Positions 9,152 through 38,021 of a DNA stretch of 64,000 nucleotides are shown piece by piece. Position 1 is the first letter of the stretch. Each line of letters begins with the position of its first letter. The notes under the pieces were generated by a model that was not told the DNA's origin, did no database searches, and was given only the letters and a program-made list of their open reading frames with translations. Source of the stretch: Paramecium tetraurelia (lineage: Eukaryota > Ciliophora > Oligohymenophorea > Peniculida > Parameciidae); contig NW_001798996.1 of assembly GCF_000165425.1 (NCBI RefSeq), positions 189,072-253,071 on the forward strand, in the 5' to 3' direction. Both the position numbers and the translations under genes were made by a program.

Positions 9152-12100
9152 ATGGAACAGGAATGTCTGATTACATAGAAAGAGAAGCACCAATTAAAGG
9201 TGAATCTAACTCTCAAGGACATGCAATTGGTTAACATGATTGCACTCAATACAGGTAGTGAAGGATTACAATTATTCATAAGATGCCGATGACGAAGAGT
9301 TCAAATACAGCATAATCAACTATTTGAGGAAGCAAAACTAGTCTCCTCGTCAGAGACAGGGGTAGAAGATAAGATGCAAGTCAACAGGGATCGAAATGAG
9401 TCCAATACGTTTGATGAGACGCAATTCTGTGAGCAAGGAATCCAAGATCACAGAGGAACAGTTGATGCAACAAATTGATGATTTGAATGACTCGCTTGTA
9501 ATGATTCTATCGAATGAGAACAAATGTGTATATTTCGTCCTTTTAATGGTTTTGACTAGATTCTCACGCACCCGGTAACTGAGAAATTGAAGAGCATCCT
9601 CGAGGTAATACAAAAGACGACCATTTCATCACCATCTACGACAAACACTAAAACACTGTAAGTTGATGAAACAGAGAATTGCAAAATAGTAGACAAATTT
9701 ACTCAGCTCTATTCAGACATGAAAGTATTCGTCATTCTCATCCAAATAGAAACATTACACCGATTATTTGAACTGCCATCTCCTATTAATGGACAACAAC
9801 CTATCCTACGAGACTCTGGTTCAAAGTGTCAGAGTTTTTGTCAAACGATTAATCGATTCCGATTAGATAACTTATTTGCACATCCGAGAGGATCAATCAC
9901 AACAGACATATTACTCAGTTGAAGACTAATACATCATCACAAATGATAAGTAAATCTACAACGAAACTTAACTGATTCAACCCAACAAAGTTTTGCTCCT
10001 AGATGAATGTAATTTCTATCCTGCCTTGAGTGAATAATTCAAGATTAAGTTGTACAAAAGGAATTATTTGATCAAATTGAATAATCAGGATGTTTTCGTC
10101 TGTTTTCATCTGAGTGATCAAACATCCATCATCAGTGAATTTCTAGCCTTGGCAGATGAATTCGATATCTTCGAAGATCTCAATTAACTGTGCACCTTCT
10201 TGATTGAGACCATCAAACAGGCCAAAATCCAGATATTTACTCCACTCCAACTCTCACACATGATCCAAGGTATTGGCATTGCCTTCATTCGAAGTTCCAA
10301 GTACTTGTTCATTAAGAAGTGCATCCATATCTTGCAATCAAAGTACCAAGTTGATATGTATGTATTATATATCCATCTATTTAGTCACATCAATACTGGA
10401 GATGCAATGTCTATAATTAGTAGTCCAAGTTTCTTCTATGGCACTTAGAAATAAGTGGATTTCGAATTCAAAGATGAACTCAATGTATCCATCACCATCA
10501 ATGGCATGGATCTGAATAGGAAGGCAGATCTAATGGTCTACAAATAACTGACTCAAAGTTTCAACAAGTATCTCAAATTCATCAGACAATGTTATGACCG
10601 AACCACCTTCTACAAGTTCTTTGTGAAATCGCAAGACACACTCATTTTTGAATTTGACAAGTTGGGCAGACTAATCTTCCTGTCTCGACCTATCCCTTTA
10701 GAAATCAAGAAGGAATTCAATATAGATTTTGATCCCAAAAAAACCAAAATGACCTATCAACAACTATTCCAAAATGAGGAACTGCTCAAATATATCGAGA
10801 ATTTCCTCCAAGAATAAAACATACTCAGAGACAGTGACCAACAATACCAGGTATTTATGAAAATGGAAGAACGCAGTTTCAAAGGATTTTTCATTATTTT
10901 TTAACAAGGCTGGTTTAAATATGATCAGAAGAAGTTTGATCTCAACGACCCTTCCCTCTAAAAGGAATTGCAGAAATAAATCATTCAACAAGAAACCATA
11001 AGATTTATTGACAAGCTCGAATAAAATAATCCTCAAATTTTGAATTCTGTTGTCTAGATGTTCAAACCAAGATCCACTTAAAGACAAACTGTTCATTACA
11101 GGAATTCCATTCTGCAATTTGAACCTGCAAAACTTGGAGTCCAACACAAATGTTCATTACGATTGGAAGACTTAAGTACTTAATGCACAGTTCCCAATAT
11201 CAATAATTTTAATTTCAATATCCTGTCAGTGGATGAAATGGTTTAAAAATAATTGGTGGTGGTTGAAATCTTAAAACATCACAACTTGATCAAAGAGTAT
11301 GATGTACCCTTGGATACTCTTTGTTCATTCCTTAGTGAAATCGAGTATAAGTACAATAAGAAGAAGAATGTGTTTCATAATTATGATCACGGTGTCTCTG
11401 TTATGCAGAATATTCATGCCATTCTATTTTAATTGCATTAAACTAATAATGCTTCTATTTTATCAACCTTCAATCAATTTGCGTTATTATTGTCTGGATT
11501 ATGTCATGATGTCTCTCACACTGGGAGAACCAATACTTTTGAGATCAATAGCTTATCAAATTTAGCCATAAGATATCACGACAGGAGCGTTTTGGAGTAG
11601 CATCATGCAGCCAAATCTCTTAAGTTGCTTTGTGTACCTCATACAAATATTCTGTAAAGTTTGAAAGGAGAAGAGTTTCGAAAATTCAGGAGGATGTTCA
11701 TTTCCAATATTCTATTCACCGACATCACAGAACATTTCAATTTGATTAAGAATTTTGAGACCAAAGTATTAGAATAGAATTTTGGATCGTAAGATGAGGA
11801 CATCAAATTATTAAGTGGCATGATCATTCATACTTCAGATTTCACAGGAGGAGCTAAGCAATTCGAGTTGTCCAAGCAATGGTCATTTAAGGTGAATAAA
11901 GAGTTTGAATAGCAATATGAATTAGAAGGTTAATTGGGATATCCCCAATTACCATATATGAAGGACTTGCAGAAGGTATCCTCAATTGTAATTAATTAGT
12001 TACCTGTGATGGCAAAACAAGAGGCTGGGTTCTTTAAGTTTATTGTTCGACCATTGTGGCAATCGATGTCCAAATACTTAGATAATAGGTTATAAGAATA

Positions 12101-12158
12101 AGTTGATTATCTTGATGAAACAATATAAAAGTGGGAAGAAATTGCTAATTCTGAATGA
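9152..12158 (+). CDS. 3',5'-cyclic nucleotide phosphodiesterase (class I PDE)
   Basis: Hydrolyses cAMP and/or cGMP. The C-terminal third is a class I PDE catalytic domain: the active-site motif HNYDHGVSVMQ (about 11378-11410), the metal-binding HD motif in LCHDVSHTGRTNTFE (about 11490-11530), ERSVLEHHHA-type helix, and later the Asp region SGMIIHTSDFTGG. The catalytic part ends KQEAGFFKFIVRPLW, typical of PDEs. The first two thirds is a large regulatory region that may hold GAF-like domains, but I could not identify a GAF signature with certainty. Several introns of 26-37 nt restore the frame (near 9254-9281, 9533-9564, 9692-9728, 10361-10385). Stop TGA at 12156-12158. Confidence 0.88.
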
Positions 12159-14309: not shown

Positions 14310-15790
14310 ATGCCTGGTAAGACGAAGATCTTTGATTAATATAAGACCCAAAATCGCAATTATACCAGATGTGGCTGAGCCAGAGACATGGGTACAGAAT
14401 TGGAGTTTATTCTAGACACTGTTCAAATAAAGAACATTATGAACACCTATAGCAACTCTATTATATTTGAAATGTTCTTCGATTCCTTTGCAGGAATATG
14501 AAAAGCATCTGCAGGGGATCCCTTTTATTGATTAAGAATGATATTGCATTCAAACGAGAAACATAGGTGGAATTCGGTATGTCTCTAATGGTGACTGCCT
14601 CAATGATCATACAATTGTTTGCAGCAGCAAAGTTGACTGATGTAGATTAGAATCGAAGGAGGATAAGCAACTTCCTCAGAAGCATAGATGTTATTGAAAA
14701 TATTATAACATTAGGTGAAGCATTCGTATATGTTCCATCTAGAGATGTATGGAGATTTGGACAAATTGGGAATATTTAATGCTATTTAGATAATAATCTG
14801 TCCTCTGGTGATCATTATTGTTAAGTTGCTATCTAAGGGTTATGGAATATATATTTCTGGAACTTCCCTCGTCATAACAATCAATATCTGCGAAAACATC
14901 ATGTGGAAGGAATTCTCACTATATTACTCACAGAATTAGAACTGGAATATGAATAAGCCATACTTGGTTTCTTCTATGGCATATTAATCCGAGAGGATAA
15001 TATCACTGCCTTTCAATCAAACCTTATTAGAGACTCTTTATGAAACCTTACTAATTTGCTGTCCTCCGTTTTGGTGTTCATGATTGTAAACTATTTCCAG
15101 TGATTTGAAATAAACATTCCAATCAAAAACAACAAATTGAGAGGAGGCCTAACTTTTTATCCTGTCAAAGTGTTCTACACTTTCAAGATACCAATAACTC
15201 TTTAAACAGCATTAGTTTCAAATCCTTACTTCCTTTCACAAATTCTTTACAGAAATTTTATTGGCAATTTCATCATCAGATTACTGGGTCATTGGTAATA
15301 ATTGGAAAATGGATATACTGCTCCCATAGAGTGATTAGTCTACTATGTTTCACCACCCAGATCCATTTCCGAAGCTATTTTAGATCCAATTAACAAAGTC
15401 CTTTATACTGCATTTATTCATGGTATTTGTGCTGTCCTCTCCAAAACTTGGATTGATGTTTCTGGATCATCACCAAATGAAGTTTGCATCACAATAGGTT
15501 GCCAAATAACTCAAAGAACAAGACATGAAAATTGTTGGTTACAGAGACTCCTCCATGAAAGATGTCTTATACGATATATTCCAATCGCTGCTTCCTTCGG
15601 TGGAATGTGCATTGGAGTTTCACTATCTTAGCTGATTTCTAAGAGCCATAGGTTCAGGTAATTGATGAATTTTATATATACTCTTAGGAACCAACATACT
15701 TTTATAAGTTACTATCATTTATGGTTATATCGAAACACTTAAAAAAAGAAAAGGAACAAGGTACACTTGAGTTGTTTTAAGGTTGTTCAA
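14310..15790 (+). pseudogene. SEC61 alpha pseudogene (protein translocon channel)
   Basis: The region is collinear with Sec61 alpha, but no frame stays open. Recognisable pieces in order: RPKIAIIPDVAEPETW, a VTASMIIQLFAAAKLTDVD segment, ITLGEAFVYV, SKGYGIYISGTSLVITINIC-like, NIPIKNNKLRGG, FYPVKVFYTFKIPITLQ, SKTWIDVSGSSPNE, KEQDMKIVGYRDSSMKDVLY, YIPIAASFGGMCIG, and ILLQVTIIYGYIETLKK. The pieces shift frame repeatedly: a 16-nt insertion-like segment near 15485-15500, single-base losses near 15570 and 15637, and an extra A in the run near 15742. These cannot be introns. A genuine 30-nt intron (about 15657-15686) survives. It is probably the decaying duplicate of a functional SEC61A copy elsewhere. 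Confidence 0.88.
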
Positions 15791-29049: not shown

Positions 29050-29844
29050 TATGATGAGAATTCATATTGAGAATCAACGATTTTGAAAGATTTACTAAAT
29101 TTTAGATATAAACCATCATAATAGAATATTTTTGTAGAACTAAAAATTATTATTATTTAATAAAAACTGTCCATCAATTTATCCTTTTTAATCAATTTCA
29201 AATAAACTTCACTATTATTATTAACAAACATTTTTCTACTTTGGTTGCAATCTATTTAAAAAATCCTACTTTTAATACCATTAAACAATTATTCCTTGTA
29301 AAGATAGTAAATTCTATAGATTTATATTTGATCTAAGTGTTCCAAAAGTTCCCTTTTATTTAAAGGAGAGTAGAGCATTCTCGATATATTCCATCAATTT
29401 TATATGTTCGCTCCTTATCATAATTAGTCTTTACCAATATTGTATTTTCAAAGGACATTCAATATACAACATTCTAATTAAGAGTAATTATCTTTTTAGC
29501 TCTTTTGACGTAATCTTATTTCATCAGAAAAAGTCAAAATAATAAATTATCAAGTTCATAAAGGGGTTTTTAATTACTTAAATAGAATAAAGGTTGATTA
29601 AATAGATTTATGTAGGAAATTAGGATGGTAATACAGGGAAAGTAGGATGATAGAGCAGCTGACATGATTATTAAAATAGTGATTGTTGTTGTGTATTAGA
29701 AAATGTGAATTTGAAAAATTTTTCCTTAAAAAATAATTAGTATATAAATAAATGTAAAGAAAATCAAATACATTAAAATACTTATGCAAGTTACTTTATT
29801 CTACAACCCCATTTTGTTAGCACAAGAATTCTTGTGTTGTGAAT
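29050..29844. other. Intergenic region, AT-rich
   Basis: A minus-strand open frame at about 29500-29789 (MHKYFNVFDFLYIYLY...) is AT-driven and rich in Asn, His, Ile and Tyr, as expected by chance. I see no supported gene. Confidence 0.4.
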
Positions 29845-30474
29845 ATGTCAAGAGGACTGGTTGAGGCATTCACTAAGGCATTTTTGGCAAAGCTTTGTTT
29901 AAATGCCATAATGTTGGTTATGAGTTCTAAGAAGATTATCAAATCATCTAATAAAATCAAATTGGTTTTTCAAATTTTGATTAATAGGTATTGTATAAAA
30001 TGTAATTATGTATAGAACTAATTTTCATTTGGGGTTATTTATGGGCACATAGACATTTTTAATTAAATGCATTTAATGTCTTTTGAGAGCAATAAGAAAT
30101 AAGGAGGATGGTTGGAATGCTGCAATTTCTGGTTTTATCGCAGGAGGGTTGAGTTTTATAACTTAGAAGCCGCATGTTCAAAATATCCTTAGAGTTTATT
30201 TGTTTGCAAGAGCGACAGAGTGCTTATATCAGATTGGTATTTAGAGGTAAAATATTTAAAAATGAAAAGAAAGTATTACAACCATCAAAAGGCGAACACT
30301 GCAATTGCATTCGTAGCAATGACTGCAGTAATTGCATACGGGTTCTTTTTTGAGCCAGACATATTGCCAATGGACACATTCAAGATGTACGAGAACTTTT
30401 CATAATAAACCCTGGTGGATTAGATTTGGCATATGTGCAATGTATAATAGTATAGAAATAGATGCAATGTTTGA
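29845..30474 (+). CDS. TMEM135-like membrane protein
   Basis: Starts MSRGLVEAFTKAFLAK. Two introns, 28 nt (GTATTG...TATAG, near 29983-30010) and 23 nt (GTAAAA...AAAAG, near 30246-30268), restore one frame. The conserved core matches TMEM135/Tim17-like proteins: RAIRNKEDGWNAAISGFIAG, LRVYLFARATECLYQIGI, and a C-terminal GFFFEPDILPMDTFKMY, where homologues have a Glu-Pro pair followed by Tyr. TMEM135 relatives are associated with peroxisomes and mitochondria; location here is inferred. It is shorter than animal TMEM135 (about 190 residues). Confidence 0.78.
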
Positions 30475-30509: not shown

Positions 30510-33500
30510 TCATAAAATTTTCTTTAACTTTCTTAATTTTCTCTGGGAAGTAATTTCATTGAAGCAAAAGTACAGAATCAAAATGGGAGTGCAAGGTAGG
30601 CCAATGACACCAATGAAATTCACATCTCTGTCTGGAAAATAATAAATCATGTAGGGTATGTACATGAGTAACACTAAAAATAGTGAAATTAAATAGGAAT
30701 AGACCAACTTCTACAAAATTGATAAATGTAATAATTTACTTTGTTTAATTTCTAATATCTGAATGATAGGATTCTTGTTCTGCCCAGGAAAACGTGTAGC
30801 CATCCCCACATGATGAATCCATAGATGAACCCTAATTGAGCAATATCCAAAGACAGGTATGAGTAACAGAGTTCTGAGTCATTTAATTTGCAAATATCAG
30901 AGTTGCTGGTGACAAAATTGGTAATCCAAGAGTGATCGGTTTCATTCAATTTGACAATAACATTTCTGAAGTCAAATTCAGATTCCTTATTGAAATGTTT
31001 ATAAAATTAGAAAGTGATAAAAGGATTTTGTGATAATGGTTGGGGATTGATTAAGTTCAGATTGCCCAAATATTGGTCTGAAGTATTAAAATTGTAAAAA
31101 TCAGTAGAATTGAATATTTGACTTGAATATCCAGTTTTGTAGATGATTCCAGGTAAGGATTTGCTTTGAAATCCAAAATAATGCATAGTAACCAAATAAC
31201 TCATCATTCCTGATGATGCAGCCAAGACTCCATGAGTGAGGATCCATCTTAAGAAATGTTGGAGTTTAATAAATATCTTCACATTACTTGGTTCTCTGAT
31301 TATGATGTCGACTTCCTCATTTTCATTCAATACTCCCAAGACCAGAATTTCCAGCACAAATGTTATATACAATATTCCAAAACTAGTGAGTGGCAATGGA
31401 ATCCCAAAAAACAACATTAAGAGAATGGGGATGAATTGACCGAATTTATTACTCAAACACAATTTAATCTGTTTAATTAGGTTATCAGTAAATCGTCTGC
31501 CATGATAAATGCATTTCAGTATCTACTCCAATTCCTGTTGTTCATTGCTCATCAAAATAACTTTAGAGGATTATTTAGCTAATTCATCAGATCTATTCAA
31601 TGCAAAACTTACATCACACTTCCTTAAGGCAGGTGAATCAATCGTATCAAAACCAATCATTCCAACTTTATATCCTTGTTTTTAAAAAGCAGATATAACC
31701 ATTAATTTTTATGCTGGATTTATTCTTGCATATATTGTATTTAATTATGTACATAGTTTTGTATTGATTGATTCTTCATCTGCCTACTCTTTTTATTATT
31801 AATTCTCATCTAATTATTCGTGATCTTCTAAATCATTACCTGTAACTATTTTAGGATTACAAACTAATTGAGATTCTTAAGCAATATATTCTGCAGTTTC
31901 AGGAAAGTCACCAGTCCTTTTTATATGTAAATAGATTACATTAACACAACTCTAATTCCAGACAAGTTCAATTTCTGCAATACTGTCCTAATGATGGGAG
32001 TGATGCTCAATTTCAAGGCAATCGTCCCTAAATTGGTTGCATGATTCAAATTAAAATTAAATTCGTTCGTGTTGGCTATATCGAATCTGTAGTTCTCATC
32101 TAGGATTAAGAGTTTCTCAGCAAATGAGATGAGCGAGTACCCCTTCTTTGCCAAATTTCTGTGAGTATTCAAATATTCAATCTCCTCTTGACTTCCAGAT
32201 CTGAATAGCTTTTATGAAATGACTTCAGGAGAACCCATTAAATACACGATATACTAAGACTTGAATTCCATATTCTGCACTATGGTCAAACAATATCGTT
32301 CTATTGCTGTGAACTGTCTCTATTGAACAATTCTGTAATCGTCAATCCTATAATCCCTAATGAATTGTCTCATTATTTGTTAAATGTCTTATTTGTTGTA
32401 AGACTCCTCCAAGGAATAATTCTCCTGATAGATGCAATAATGGATGCAATTAAGTAAGTCTATCAAATCTAAGATTTAAATACTTTGATAGTTCTTGATC
32501 TTGTTAATGTGATATATTTGATTGTCCAGGATTATCTTCTTAGGTTGTTATCCCTAGACCAGGACAGCTTCCTTATTGATCAACAGCAAACTCATTTAAG
32601 TTAGACTCTCAATCACGTCAACATCCTTCAAAAATACACTCTGATCTTGCATGATTGAGACAATCTTCCTCTTTGAGTAGGAGATCAACAACATCAAAGT
32701 GAAGGGAAGACTAGGTTAAATTATTTGATACTTAGATAGTATGATTATGATGATTGTGTTAATTAGGAATGTGAAGTCGTAGTGTCCATTCTGGTACTCC
32801 TCGAATATCCATCCAATGATTGTTATGATGATGAATGAAAATATTATCAGAGTAGTAATCTATATAATTCTTAATAATTTAAATCAAATACTTCTTGACT
32901 TAGTAATCGATGTGTGAAATGGACATGGGAACATCAATCTTCTTGGCTAGTTTCCCCAGAATAGTCTAATTGCCAGTGTTTATGACTATGGCTCTTCCTT
33001 CCCCAAAAACACAACCGACTCCTAAGAAGGCTACGTTCCTTGCTTCAAATATGGATTTGTGATTGCTTTCTTCTGATTCCAATAATATTGGCTGACAATC
33101 CCCTGTGAATATAAAATTGTCCACACTCAATTGTTGGGATAGTATGATTCTACAATCGGCTGGCACCTTGTAATTGGAATTCAATTCAATCAGATCTCCC
33201 TTCACCAATTATTCCGAGGAGATTTTTTACTTTTAGCCATTTCTTATTACTATCACTTCGTCATTGGTGATTATTTGATTGAATTACTAAAAGAGTTTCT
33301 TCTTCTTTTGATACGACGTGAATGTAATTATGTGGGTGAATACTAGAATTGCCAATAAACTAATGATTTCAATCAGAAATGAAATGTGCTCCTTCTCATC
33401 ATACAAATATCCAACTATCGACAACACTATAACTATAACTAATGCTAATGTAAAGAGGTTGAACACTTCTCGCAATTGCACATTTGCATGTTTGCTCGTA

Positions 33501-33850
33501 ATTTTGTTTAAACCGAATTTTGCAATCTTCTCCTAGACCTATTGATCATTCAATCCATCCGTGATGTTCGTCTTCAAAATCTTTTATATCTATTCAACAG
33601 AGTATGTATGTTCGATCATCTCTATTTGGTCTTAATCAATCTATATAGAATTTTCGGACATATAGGAAGGATATACGTGACTCATTCGCTGACTTGGCTT
33701 CTGCTTGCTAAACAAAATATTCTCATTATCATGCATTTTAGACGAGTAGTCCGCCCCTCTCTCCAAAAACCGAGGAGCCTCCTCAACTATTGAACTGTTA
33801 ATCAATTCCCCCGGTTAGATTGGATGCTCCTTTATTTTGAATTCGAGCAT
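30510..33850 (-). CDS. P2C-type (Na+/K+-ATPase alpha-like) P-type ATPase homologue, catalytic motifs lost
   Basis: The fold of a Na,K/H,K-ATPase alpha subunit is followed end to end: KFGLNKITSKHANVQLREV before M1, a GDLIELNSNYKVPADCRII A-domain, VDNFIFTGDCQP, ARNVAFLGVGCVFGEGRA, a nucleotide-binding domain, LSGIRVVLMTGDFPETA, a hinge region and six C-terminal TM segments. Hallmark residues have changed. DKTGTLT is NKEAVLV (the phosphorylated Asp is Asn, codon at 32575-32577). TGES is TGDC. M4 PEGL is PSLP. KGAPE is MGSPE. GDGVNDSPAL is GFDTIDSPAL. Catalysis by phosphoenzyme is therefore not expected, yet the frame is open over about 1,080 residues with only standard small introns (one of 23 nt near 31931-31953). 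Confidence 0.85.
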
Positions 33851-33986
33851 CGCCTATATAATCGAATATTGCACTAGACTTTTATTTGGAGAAGAGTCTA
33901 AATCACCTAAATAAACATACTTTCAGCGAACGATTTCGTATTATGATTACTTTGCTCTAATAAATATTGAGATTATTCTCCTTTAT

Positions 33987-34430
33987 TCATATAATTATAA
34001 ATTGAATTATAAGTAATTCTTTAACATTAACTTATTTAATATTATCACTATATGTCACTACTTTTACATTATGATCGAATATATATATATATAGAAATTT
34101 TTATAAAAATATTAATAAAGCAGATTTTTCAATCTAATTCCACAAAATATCCTCCTCCCTCGGATCTCCTCCCCGCACTTCGAATCTATTAGATTCTTGA
34201 TTCAGAAGCCCCACATCCTCAATCCCCACCAATAAATTATAGAACTCTTAGGAAGAACTCCACCACTCTTCATATATTTTTCAATATCCACATTCCCAAT
34301 TGACCTGACCTCTATTCTTTTTTTGTGCCTCTCTCTCAAATAGGAATTGATTTGAAGATCAAGCCGTGTTACAGAATTGACTTATAAGAATTTGATTATA
34401 ACAACCAAAATAAATTTGAATCATTATACA
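33987..34430 (-). CDS. Possible short gene, unknown
   Basis: A less AT-rich block at about 34150-34400 reads on the minus strand as EEWWSSSQEFYNLLVGIED and then NQESNRFEVRGGDPREEDIL, with an upstream segment (INSYLRERHKKRIE) in another frame that would need an intron. The composition looks coding. I cannot fix the start, and the frame runs on into AT-rich sequence to a TGA at 33987-33989. No family is recognised. Confidence 0.35.
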
Positions 34431-35888: not shown

Positions 35889-38021
35889 TCTCATAATATT
35901 GATTTGTAATAATCAGCTTCTACTTTAGATTGTGTCTTAACTCGTTTTTTATGTTTATTTTAGTCATCTTTGCTTTATATACTATGTAAGGGATGGTATG
36001 TATTAATAGAATCTGTCAACATAAATCCTTGCACTTGATTTTCTGACAATCTGTCTAATCTAGAACTCATTGATTTAGATTTCATAAATGATTAATAATT
36101 TGACTTTATGATATCTACTTTAGATGAAATATTCGGATTCACAACTCTTATATGTTATTTAGCTACTTTTATTTAAGGTAATTATTAAGAATCTTCTTCA
36201 TATGATTGCCTAATAGAAAACTAATCTCTATTTGTTGCAAAGGAAGGGAACTATTTAAGACGAACTGACTGCAAGAGATCTTTGACACTGCTGTTTTATT
36301 TACTAAAATACGGTGTCTTGGCTCTACATATTGCAAGAATAGATACTTAGGTTTGGCAGGTTAAAACTATTCAAATTACTTTTCAACTCTTATCAAAAGA
36401 CACTTTTAGAAATTGTCTCCAGCCAATTTGAGCATGTTAAATTCCTCTTATTTCTCCCCAAATTGTTCATCTAATTTAGTGTGTTAATCAATGATGGATT
36501 TATTTTATTCAACCATTTGCTGTTTAGAGAGTTTTGATTAAAACGTAGAGCGTAGAATAGGTTATGACAGAAATGGCTTAGCTTCTTCTTTGCCAAACTC
36601 ATTTGCGTATCTCCTTTCAACAGCCAGAGCTTCTTCCTTTTTTGTAAGATAGAAGTTACAACTCTTAGTTTTCACAATGTCCTCTATTCTCCTTCTGAAA
36701 AGTTAGCTGTTTCTTTATTGGAGGGAATTCAAAGCCTAGAAAAACTCTGGAAATGTCTTCCTGACAATATGATAATTCTCAAAATAATGAAAATGATATT
36801 TTACTTCTAGAGAAAGACAAAAACAATTGCAAATAGTTAATGTTTTTACTGAATAATCTCTTCTCTCCTTTTTTTAGACCACTTCTGTTTCACCAACAAA
36901 GCAGCCTCCTGTCAGATTGGCCAAGATGATGGTTTCCTTGATATCCTTGATTTCTGGTTTAGAACTTTGGAATATAGACATCAATGTAAAATCTACGTTG
37001 TTCTGAGTGGGTGGTTTTGGATATTCAACATTTTGCAATAGTTACATTTCTCCATCTTTCAAGAGTAGGAATCCATCTGTTTCATCTCCTTATTTCCAAA
37101 TGAAAAAGTTAGCTGGAAATTTGGCAGATGTAAAATACAAAATGAGTTTGGACATTTTATGTTTCGTCATGTGAGGAAACATTTTTAAAAAGTAGTCTAT
37201 TTTCTATTGGAGTGCTTTCATTCCCTTTTCTCCAACTTACTATAGTTATGGATTGGAATTACCTTGAAATTAGCCTTGGATAAGGATAGCAATTTTAGAT
37301 CAGTTAAGCCAAATATACTGGCAGTTCTGGGCTTATCGTTAGTTAATGCCATTTCTCCGAAGATTGTTCCTGATTGCTTTTAGGCCACCAACATAAATTT
37401 GCAGATTCCTTGGTTGGTGAAATATTTTTCAAAGTTTCCCGATCGAAATAATATTAGTTCAGAATCGATGACTTTTTGTGGTTTGGCCTACTTTTTAATT
37501 ACTTAACCATAGAATTTCATTAAATCGTCTCCTTACAATTGAGAGACAGATTCCAAATGCAGCTTTTCGAGCATCTTTAATATTCTTGGTTAAGCAGCTG
37601 CTTCATCGGCTTCAATCGATGCTGGTTGTCTTCTAATATAGATTCCTGCCCTGCCACTCAGAACAATATAGAATTTGTCACCAACATCATCTACATATGA
37701 TGCCAATATCTACCAATGTGAAACACAGGGGAATCTTTTGGGATGAATTCGTAAATGAGGTTTTGGCAGCATAATTTTGTAAACTCCATTAAGGTTTGAG
37801 TGTCAGGACAATTCTCCTTAAAAAAATCAATAACCTGAAGTATTTTGGCGATAATGTCGATTTATTCCTCAGATAAATATTGGTAATCTTGATAAATTTA
37901 GACAACGGGCTTTTTATTATTGTGATTTCATGCATACTTAAAATAATTCTTCCTTTGCCAATGCCTGATCTTCCTGTTCCTTCTCAAAATCTTTGGTTAA
38001 TCCTCTTTTAAGTTTCGACAT
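35889..38021 (-). CDS. Cyclic nucleotide-binding domain protein
   Basis: Starts MSKLKRGLTKDFEKEQ. A 28-nt intron (GTATGC...AAAAG) follows residue 28. The protein carries cNMP-binding (CAP-type) folds: the first begins VFHIG...VDDVGDKFYIVLSG, and a phosphate-binding cassette reads IFGEMALTNDKPRTASI (FGE..L....RxAS). A second unit includes FFIWKQGDETDGFLLLKDG and GGCFVGETEVV. The C-terminal 220 residues are basic and partly coiled coil. There is no kinase or channel domain, so it is not a normal PKA/PKG catalytic or channel subunit. It could be a regulatory-subunit-like cAMP/cGMP effector; that is inference. Stop at 35889-35891. Confidence 0.78.

Follow-up and report, generated by a model that had tools for sequence, protein, structure and literature searches.

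A conserved P2C-like ATPase relative of Paramecium tetraurelia with replaced canonical catalytic and ion-binding residues

Pseudokinases and pseudophosphatases are well known; dead ion pumps are, to our knowledge, rare and disputed, as in the case of TMEM94. TMEM94 (ERMA), a membrane protein of the animal endoplasmic reticulum (ER), has the P-type architecture, lacks TGES and has undetectable ATPase activity (PMC12134183). It adopts one nearly unchanged conformation under six conditions, for which the authors leave autoinhibition in detergent open (PMC12134183). The function of TMEM94 is disputed, as another paper reports it to be an ER Mg2+ ATPase (PMC13322241). Most signature residues are not found in the P4-ATPase-like domain of the Plasmodium guanylate cyclase PfGC-beta, and its Toxoplasma relative, with most motifs kept, is a proposed lipid mover (PMC6592433). 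For C. elegans CATP-1, the evidence for possible pump-independent functions is mixed (PMC11631496). Here, we describe a gene of Paramecium tetraurelia that encodes a conserved relative of P-type ATPases in which the catalytic and transport sites are replaced. The gene lies in a stretch of 64,000 nucleotides (the window; G000:C43:189072-253071), taken from a 69.07-Mb assembly.

Among known dead P-type bodies that stand alone, TMEM94 comes nearest to the case described here. Its proposed site retains an Asp (D417), whereas the window protein has Asn. The ATPase domain of the alveolate guanylate cyclases is of the P4 type and fused to the cyclase, whereas the window protein is P2C-like and stands alone. 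TMEM94, PfGC-beta and, on mixed evidence, CATP-1 provide precedents among P-type proteins for a non-catalytic mode of working, which is contested for TMEM94.

The roles of the motif residues of P-type ATPases are established from Na,K-ATPase and SERCA. We compared the motifs of the window protein in an alignment of 18 rows, including eight P2C paralogues of the same genome with intact motifs, among whose core models only that on contig C47 contains X. The phosphorylation site DKTGTLT is replaced by NKEAVLV in the window protein and its P. primaurelia orthologue, and by NKEALLV in that of P. sonneborni, so that the acceptor Asp is Asn. TGES of the actuator (A) domain has become TGDC, in which T-G and the following acidic residue are retained. 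In the nucleotide (N) domain, KGAPE has changed to MGSPE and the FNSTNK stretch to FTAIER, with its Phe retained. The DPPR/DPPK core has become SITP, without its Asp, in the window protein and the orthologues. Of the two Asp residues of the hinge motif GDGVND, the first is Phe and the second is retained (GFDTID). Other retained elements are PAD, the GD of LVPGD (here KGD) and two features of active P-type ATPases in the phosphorylation (P) domain, namely the TGD of MVTGD (here LMTGD) and the PxxK Lys (NPAQK, for TSPAQK of the intact-motif paralogues).

An initial annotation of this region had reported the changes at DKTGTLT, TGES, KGAPE and GDGVNDSPAL (here GFDTIDSPAL), all of which recur in the spliced sequence. 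Its reading of PEGL in M4 as PSLP has to be replaced, since those letters belong in part to a 21-base intron; the spliced motif is NLPFTL, identical in both orthologous proteins, and the PEGL Glu is Phe. The further statement that all hallmarks are lost is too strong. It holds for the acceptor Asp, TGES, KGAPE, DPPR and the first hinge Asp, and fails for LMTGD, NPAQK, the second hinge Asp and the TG-acidic pair.

The canonical ion ligands of M4 to M6, which the initial annotation had not covered beyond M4, are replaced too. M4, M5 and M6 carry PFTL, SNKFGQ and ITFVLE in place of the ligands of P2C pumps: Asn and Glu of the M5 stretch TSNIAE are Lys and Gln, and the Na,K-type Asp positions of M6 are Thr and Glu. 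The M6 positions also vary among the eight P2C paralogues, the first being Gln, Glu, Asp or Cys and the second Gly in one of them, which may reflect different ion choices. A fixed positive charge might be supplied by the Lys of the M5 site. Judged from the established roles of these residues, the replacements are predicted to affect the cation site, the binding of ATP and Mg, and the transfer of the phosphoryl group. By sequence, the window protein is thus a pseudo-P-type ATPase, a selected P-type body with its catalytic residues lost, and in that sense the initial description as a pseudo-pump was apt.

Translated with the ciliate code, in which TAA and TAG encode Gln, the spliced gene has seven exons and runs from a Met codon at 33990 to a TGA stop ending at 30510, with zero stops and zero frameshifts in the frame. 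The six introns of 23, 22, 21, 24, 23 and 29 bases are all of the GT-AG type; the second and fifth end in AAG and the others in TAG. AAG ends are unusual for Paramecium. A spliced aligner guided by the P. primaurelia protein P0001 placed six introns of identical lengths and no frameshift. A frameshift considered near 32890 was ruled out, as a 22-base intron lies there and its removal yields the letters of both orthologous proteins.

A database search returned two orthologues, P0001 of P. primaurelia, which represents eight member sequences, and P0002 of P. sonneborni. They are identical to the window protein at 1059 of 1111 (95.3%) and 998 of 1109 (90.0%) positions, respectively; the following hits have about 25% identity. 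The species were compared at the protein level. Both orthologous proteins lack DKTGT, the motif whose presence in sister species would have spoken for a young pseudogene, and share the site substitutions of the window gene. The mean BLOSUM62 score is +1.17 over the 52 differences from P. primaurelia and +0.77 over the 111 differences from P. sonneborni. Neutral simulations, run at three settings with 300 runs each per species comparison, gave means from -0.37 to -0.21, and the highest means reached were 0.48 for 52 changes and 0.20 for 111 changes. The amino-acid changes between species are far more conservative than neutral.

These data bear on whether the locus is a young pseudogene, or an artefact of assembly or splicing. 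The lost motifs and the two AAG-ending introns would fit such an origin. However, the proteins of two other species lack the intron letters and have identical motifs, the substitutions are conservative, and the spliced alignment contains no frameshift. A decayed stretch resembling SEC61 in the same window carries three in-frame TGA codons, the contrast to which the initial annotation had pointed in arguing that the pump gene is not decaying. That argument is borne out by the unbroken spliced frame, the substitutions common to two sister species, the conservative changes and the low ratio of nonsynonymous to synonymous substitutions (dN/dS, 0.063) in a second pair of pseudo-pumps described below. 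We therefore reject a young pseudogene on the orthologue motifs, the conservative changes and this ratio, and regard a pseudogene or artefact as scarcely credible.

The second pair of pseudo-pumps, on contigs C197 and C207 and missed by the initial annotation, was found in a genome search with P0001. No close intact-motif paralogue from which the window gene could recently have decayed was found, the best non-self genome matches being this pair at 26% identity. Each gene has one long open frame and one short intron and encodes 1020 or 1023 residues. The acceptor site is GLNEVIT, with Gly for Asp; the TGES loop is gone, M4 has PVGL, TGEHPETA and GEGLTD stand at further sites, and the DPPR stretch is altered. 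KGAPE and FNSSKK are retained. The two proteins are 89.7% identical, with dS 0.863, dN 0.0545 and dN/dS 0.063, and we infer that they are a pair from a whole-genome duplication. The pair is under purifying selection. Over the M1-M6 core its dN/dS is 0.054, compared with 0.049 to 0.131 in four pairs of intact-motif paralogues, which have high dS (1.6 to 3.0); a fifth pair has infinite dS and gives no ratio. Since the values are comparable, this Asp-less pump is held about as tightly as Asp-bearing pumps.

The window protein is 28% identical to the second pseudo-pump. Both are P2C-like and intact, lack DKTGT, have lost DPPR and carry RFLE[RK]G[AP]D in the N-terminal tail (N-tail). They differ in what remains: KGAPE and FNSSKK are present in the second pseudo-pump, which is without the TGES loop, and in the window protein the A-domain loop is largely preserved but the ATP-site residues are lost. 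A live pump with a different acceptor residue or working mechanism would agree with an intact, conserved gene and with the persistence of the P-domain TGD, NPAQK and the second hinge Asp. It is nevertheless very unlikely: none of the three species has retained the acceptor, the Lys of KGAPE, the Asp of DPPR or the first Asp of the hinge, the ion ligands have been lost as well, and in the second lineage the acceptor position is Gly and the TGES loop is missing.

Loss of the acceptor Asp is unusual in this genome. Among 54 P-type loci whose acceptor site was examined, DKTGT is present in 51 (48 with DKTGTLT by pattern, two of the heavy-metal type with DKTGTLF, and one further P2C copy with DKTGTLT) and absent in three, which are the window gene and the C197/C207 pair. 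The first 50 of these loci are the top of an A-domain score list of 117 match rows, so that weaker loci are under-sampled. Asp-Lys-Thr was found by pattern in 295 of 297 proteins from the database searches, the two exceptions being the orthologues. No relative from outside Paramecium without the acceptor Asp was seen among the database matches listed, a word-based screen with capped candidates that for one listing covered the best 120 of 498; the same searches returned no C197/C207 orthologues either, so absence outside Paramecium cannot be inferred. A search of the open literature for pseudoenzyme P-type ATPases or pseudo-pumps found no paper, with most subscription journals outside its coverage and a record in print possible. 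The accessible parts of two reviews of P-type ATPases contain nothing on dead pumps for the words searched (PMC10654040, PMC6884021).

The window protein is closest to the P2C (Na,K/H,K) branch of the P-type ATPases, as judged from profile and structure matches. The Pfam, solved-structure and first database searches used an early model of 1127 amino acids with two in-frame introns unspliced. With this model, the best solved structure was the Na,K-ATPase alpha subunit 7e1z (E 1.7e-61, residues 113-925), followed by H,K-ATPase and then by Ca and Mg pumps. The Pfam families E1-E2_ATPase (86.3 bits, cut-off 28.1) and Cation_ATPase_N (42.9, cut-off 20.4) were passed; Cation_ATPase_C (26.2, cut-off 27.3) and Hydrolase (21.9, cut-off 26.4) stayed below the cut-off. 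The two orthologues passed TIGR01494 with 112.7 and 119.8 bits (cut-off 62.3). TIGR01106 (Na,K/H,K) was the best of 18 listed NCBIfam subfamilies, with 236.1 and 240.1 bits for the orthologues against a cut-off of 946.1. The window gene thus shares with the Na,K/H,K-ATPase alpha subunit its best structure match and subfamily, but lies far under the subfamily cut-off, and its acceptor, KGAPE, DPPR, first hinge Asp and ion ligands are replaced. A long M7-M8 loop is present in the P2C paralogue models as well.

Trees unite the window-gene and C197/C207 lineages, with values of 98/99 for 22 rows and 99/98 for 18 rows, and approximately unbiased tests reject both alternative groupings tried (p 0.010 and 0.024). 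The near copy P0001 was excluded from the first tree, and C47, P0004, P0016 and P0092 also from the second. The tree program warns of two long branches meeting. One of the two leave-one-out trees was built, under a simpler model and without C197/C207; in it the window gene, whose branch is very long, has no settled place among the groups, and the nearest sequences by path are ciliate P2C paralogues. The best single stretch of C207 scores 150 bits against an intact-motif paralogue and 95 bits against the window gene, which weighs against one clade. The score of the N-tail motif similarity was reached by 4 and 16 of 3000 shuffles. N-tail pieces of four of the eight paralogues contain, as far as one frame showed, no RFLE[RK]G[AP]D, and their similarity is not beyond chance. 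The N-tail likeness of the two lineages is no more than suggestive. Overall, one ancestral loss seems somewhat likelier than two.

The full-length paralogue models are uncertain at their ends, and five of the eight (L049, L042, L046, C2 and C47) have X at one or two aligner-chosen frameshifts; all of these but C47 were used in the second tree. The C47 locus (L071, G000:C47:543000-548000) is a DKTGT P2C copy with two frameshifts relative to its C2 partner, from decay, missed introns or assembly errors. A possible remnant of a P2C pump at G000:C211:652812-654100 (L073) has an N-terminal stretch close to a KGAPE-region match; the A domain and acceptor site are seemingly missing between the two matches.

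Conservation is not uniform along the window protein. Within region boundaries that we set ourselves, the residues invariant in three species number 109/118 in the N-tail, 69/82 in the M1-M2 region, 136/145 in the A domain, 62/73 in M3-M4, 32/38 in the first P part, 134/159 in the N domain, 153/175 in the second P part, 71/75 in M5-M6, 39/40 in the M7 region, 81/103 in the M7-M8 loop and 96/104 in M8-M10 with the C-terminus. Conservation of the N-tail is unexpected for a mere linker. In C197/C207, dN/dS is 0.012 in M1-M2, 0.023 in M3-M4, 0.008 in M5-M6 and 0.026 in the second P part.

In the window protein, M5-M6, M7 and M8-M10 rank with the best-conserved regions, and M1-M2, M3-M4 and M5-M6 have the lowest dN/dS in C197/C207. 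Both would suit a membrane function that does without ATP, such as a passive channel, a lipid scramblase or a lipid-binding protein. In TMEM94, a lipid occupies a gorge lined by M3, M4, M5 and M7 (PMC12134183). A bare conduit would, however, need neither the A domain nor the N-tail, which are equally conserved, and M1-M4 are less conserved in the window gene; we consider such a function quite improbable. A sensor that responds to a bound nucleotide or ion with a change of shape, without turnover, would draw on the Phe of FNSTNK, kept in the window protein, and on KGAPE and FNSSKK of C197/C207, where nucleotide binding may survive. TMEM94 is reported to bind AMPPCP with micromolar affinity while its ATPase activity is undetectable (PMC12134183). 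The KGAPE Lys of the window protein is Met, though, and its N domain is less conserved than its A domain. A cation sensor at the usual sites is made less likely by the replacement of the canonical ion-binding residues and by the Lys of the M5 site. We regard a sensor role as unlikely to the same degree as the ATP-independent function.

The best explanation as a whole, which we consider fairly probable, is a functional, conserved pseudo-pump related to P2C alpha subunits, most likely in a non-catalytic, partner-binding role. The part of this explanation that concerns a conserved dead pump is very probably correct; the partner role is put forward more tentatively. Three observations count against the explanation. 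A stop-free frame between species is weak evidence alone, as 12 to 43% of neutral runs were also stop-free. The M1-M2 and M3-M4 regions fall below the A domain and M5-M10 in conservation, so that the membrane body is unevenly constrained. A simple hydropathy scan of the window protein gave eight peaks, one of them within the A domain, and its ten helices therefore rest on homology; the same scan gave ten peaks in each of the C197 and C207 proteins, and in three paralogues it gave six or seven.

Since the catalytic and transport sites have changed together and the body is under selection, we propose that the protein works without the cycle. It retains the membrane part together with the A, N and P domains, but is predicted to be unable to pass through the normal phosphorylation cycle or to hold cations at the usual sites. 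It would be a pseudo-pump without ATPase activity, held in one conformation. Its membrane body, preserved A domain and preserved N-tail may bind a partner and regulate or place it, and an intact-motif P2C pump is a possible partner. A regulatory or scaffold role, as also suggested in the initial annotation, appears the likeliest, because the preserved parts (A domain, M5-M10 and N-tail) could hold the shape and make contacts. Going further, the dead Na,K-type alpha-like proteins could form two classes that have lost complementary halves, the window gene keeping the A domain and losing the ATP site, and C197/C207 keeping the ATP site and losing the actuator loop, and might serve as regulatory alpha-like subunits together or with live P2C pumps. 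They would then be an old family and, within the sodium-pump branch, the first pseudo-pumps that stand alone, an extension that we rate as rather doubtful.

On the opposite strand, an open frame at 29683-30474 (+) ends 35 bases from the pseudo-pump stop and has no Pfam match as an unspliced frame. Two open frames that flank the pseudo-pump region, 9723-12155 (+) and 36142-37299 (-), match a phosphodiesterase for cyclic nucleotides and a cyclic-nucleotide-binding domain, respectively; nothing here ties them to the pseudo-pump. Coordinates of all features are given in Table 1.

Table 1. Features of the pseudo-P2C-ATPase gene and related loci; positions are those of the window unless a contig is named.
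Feature	Position	Strand	Basis or remark
Pseudo-P2C-ATPase gene, Met to stop	30510..33990	minus	ciliate code, 1112 aa, spliced model
Exons of the gene	33990-33921, 33897-32892, 32869-32732, 32710-32484, 32459-31940, 31916-30740, 30710-30510	minus	
N-terminal tail, residues 1-118	33614..33990	minus	109/118 invariant in three species
RFLERGAD in N-tail	33772-33749	minus	counterpart RFLEKGPD in second pseudo-pump
A (actuator) domain, residues 201-345 (our boundaries)	32933..33367	minus	136/145 invariant in three species
TGDC for TGES	33106-33095	minus	A domain, alignment
M4 motif NLPFTL for NVPEGL, interrupted by 21-base intron 32731-32711	32695..32733	minus	splicing and alignment
Phosphorylation site NKEAVLV for DKTGTLT (acceptor Asp to Asn)	32557..32577	minus	alignment
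MGSPE for KGAPE, N (nucleotide) domain	32224..32238	minus	alignment
LKLSITP for SLIDPPK (DPPR) stretch	31996..32016	minus	alignment
TGD of LMTGD, retained	31907..31915	minus	alignment
NPAQK with P-domain Lys, retained (TSPAQK in intact-motif paralogues)	31706..31720	minus	alignment
GFDTID for GDGVND (first hinge Asp to Phe, second Asp retained)	31637..31654	minus	alignment
M5 SNKFGQ for TSNIAE (Asn to Lys, Glu to Gln)	31436..31453	minus	alignment
M6 YITFVLE (Na,K-type Asp positions Thr and Glu)	31349..31369	minus	alignment
Long M7-M8 loop, residues 906-1008 (our boundaries), four N-glycosylation sequons	30854..31162	minus	least conserved region, 81/103
Second pseudo-pumps	C197:167832-170582 and C207:188608-191259		genome search with P0001, best non-self matches, both 26% identical
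SecY/SEC61-like decayed copy	15014-15619 (G000:C43:204085-204690)	plus	three in-frame TGA stops, ciliate code

At least three pseudo-pump genes of two lineages are present in this Paramecium genome and form a small selected family. They occur in a genetically tractable ciliate beside eight modelled P2C relatives with intact motifs, of which the C47 copy needs frameshifts. Because each lineage has kept and lost different sites, predictions are ready to hand. Such a set would open a direct way to study the workings of a P-type body that no longer cycles. The conservation of these genes suggests that the body of a pump has been recruited to a task for which pumping is not required.

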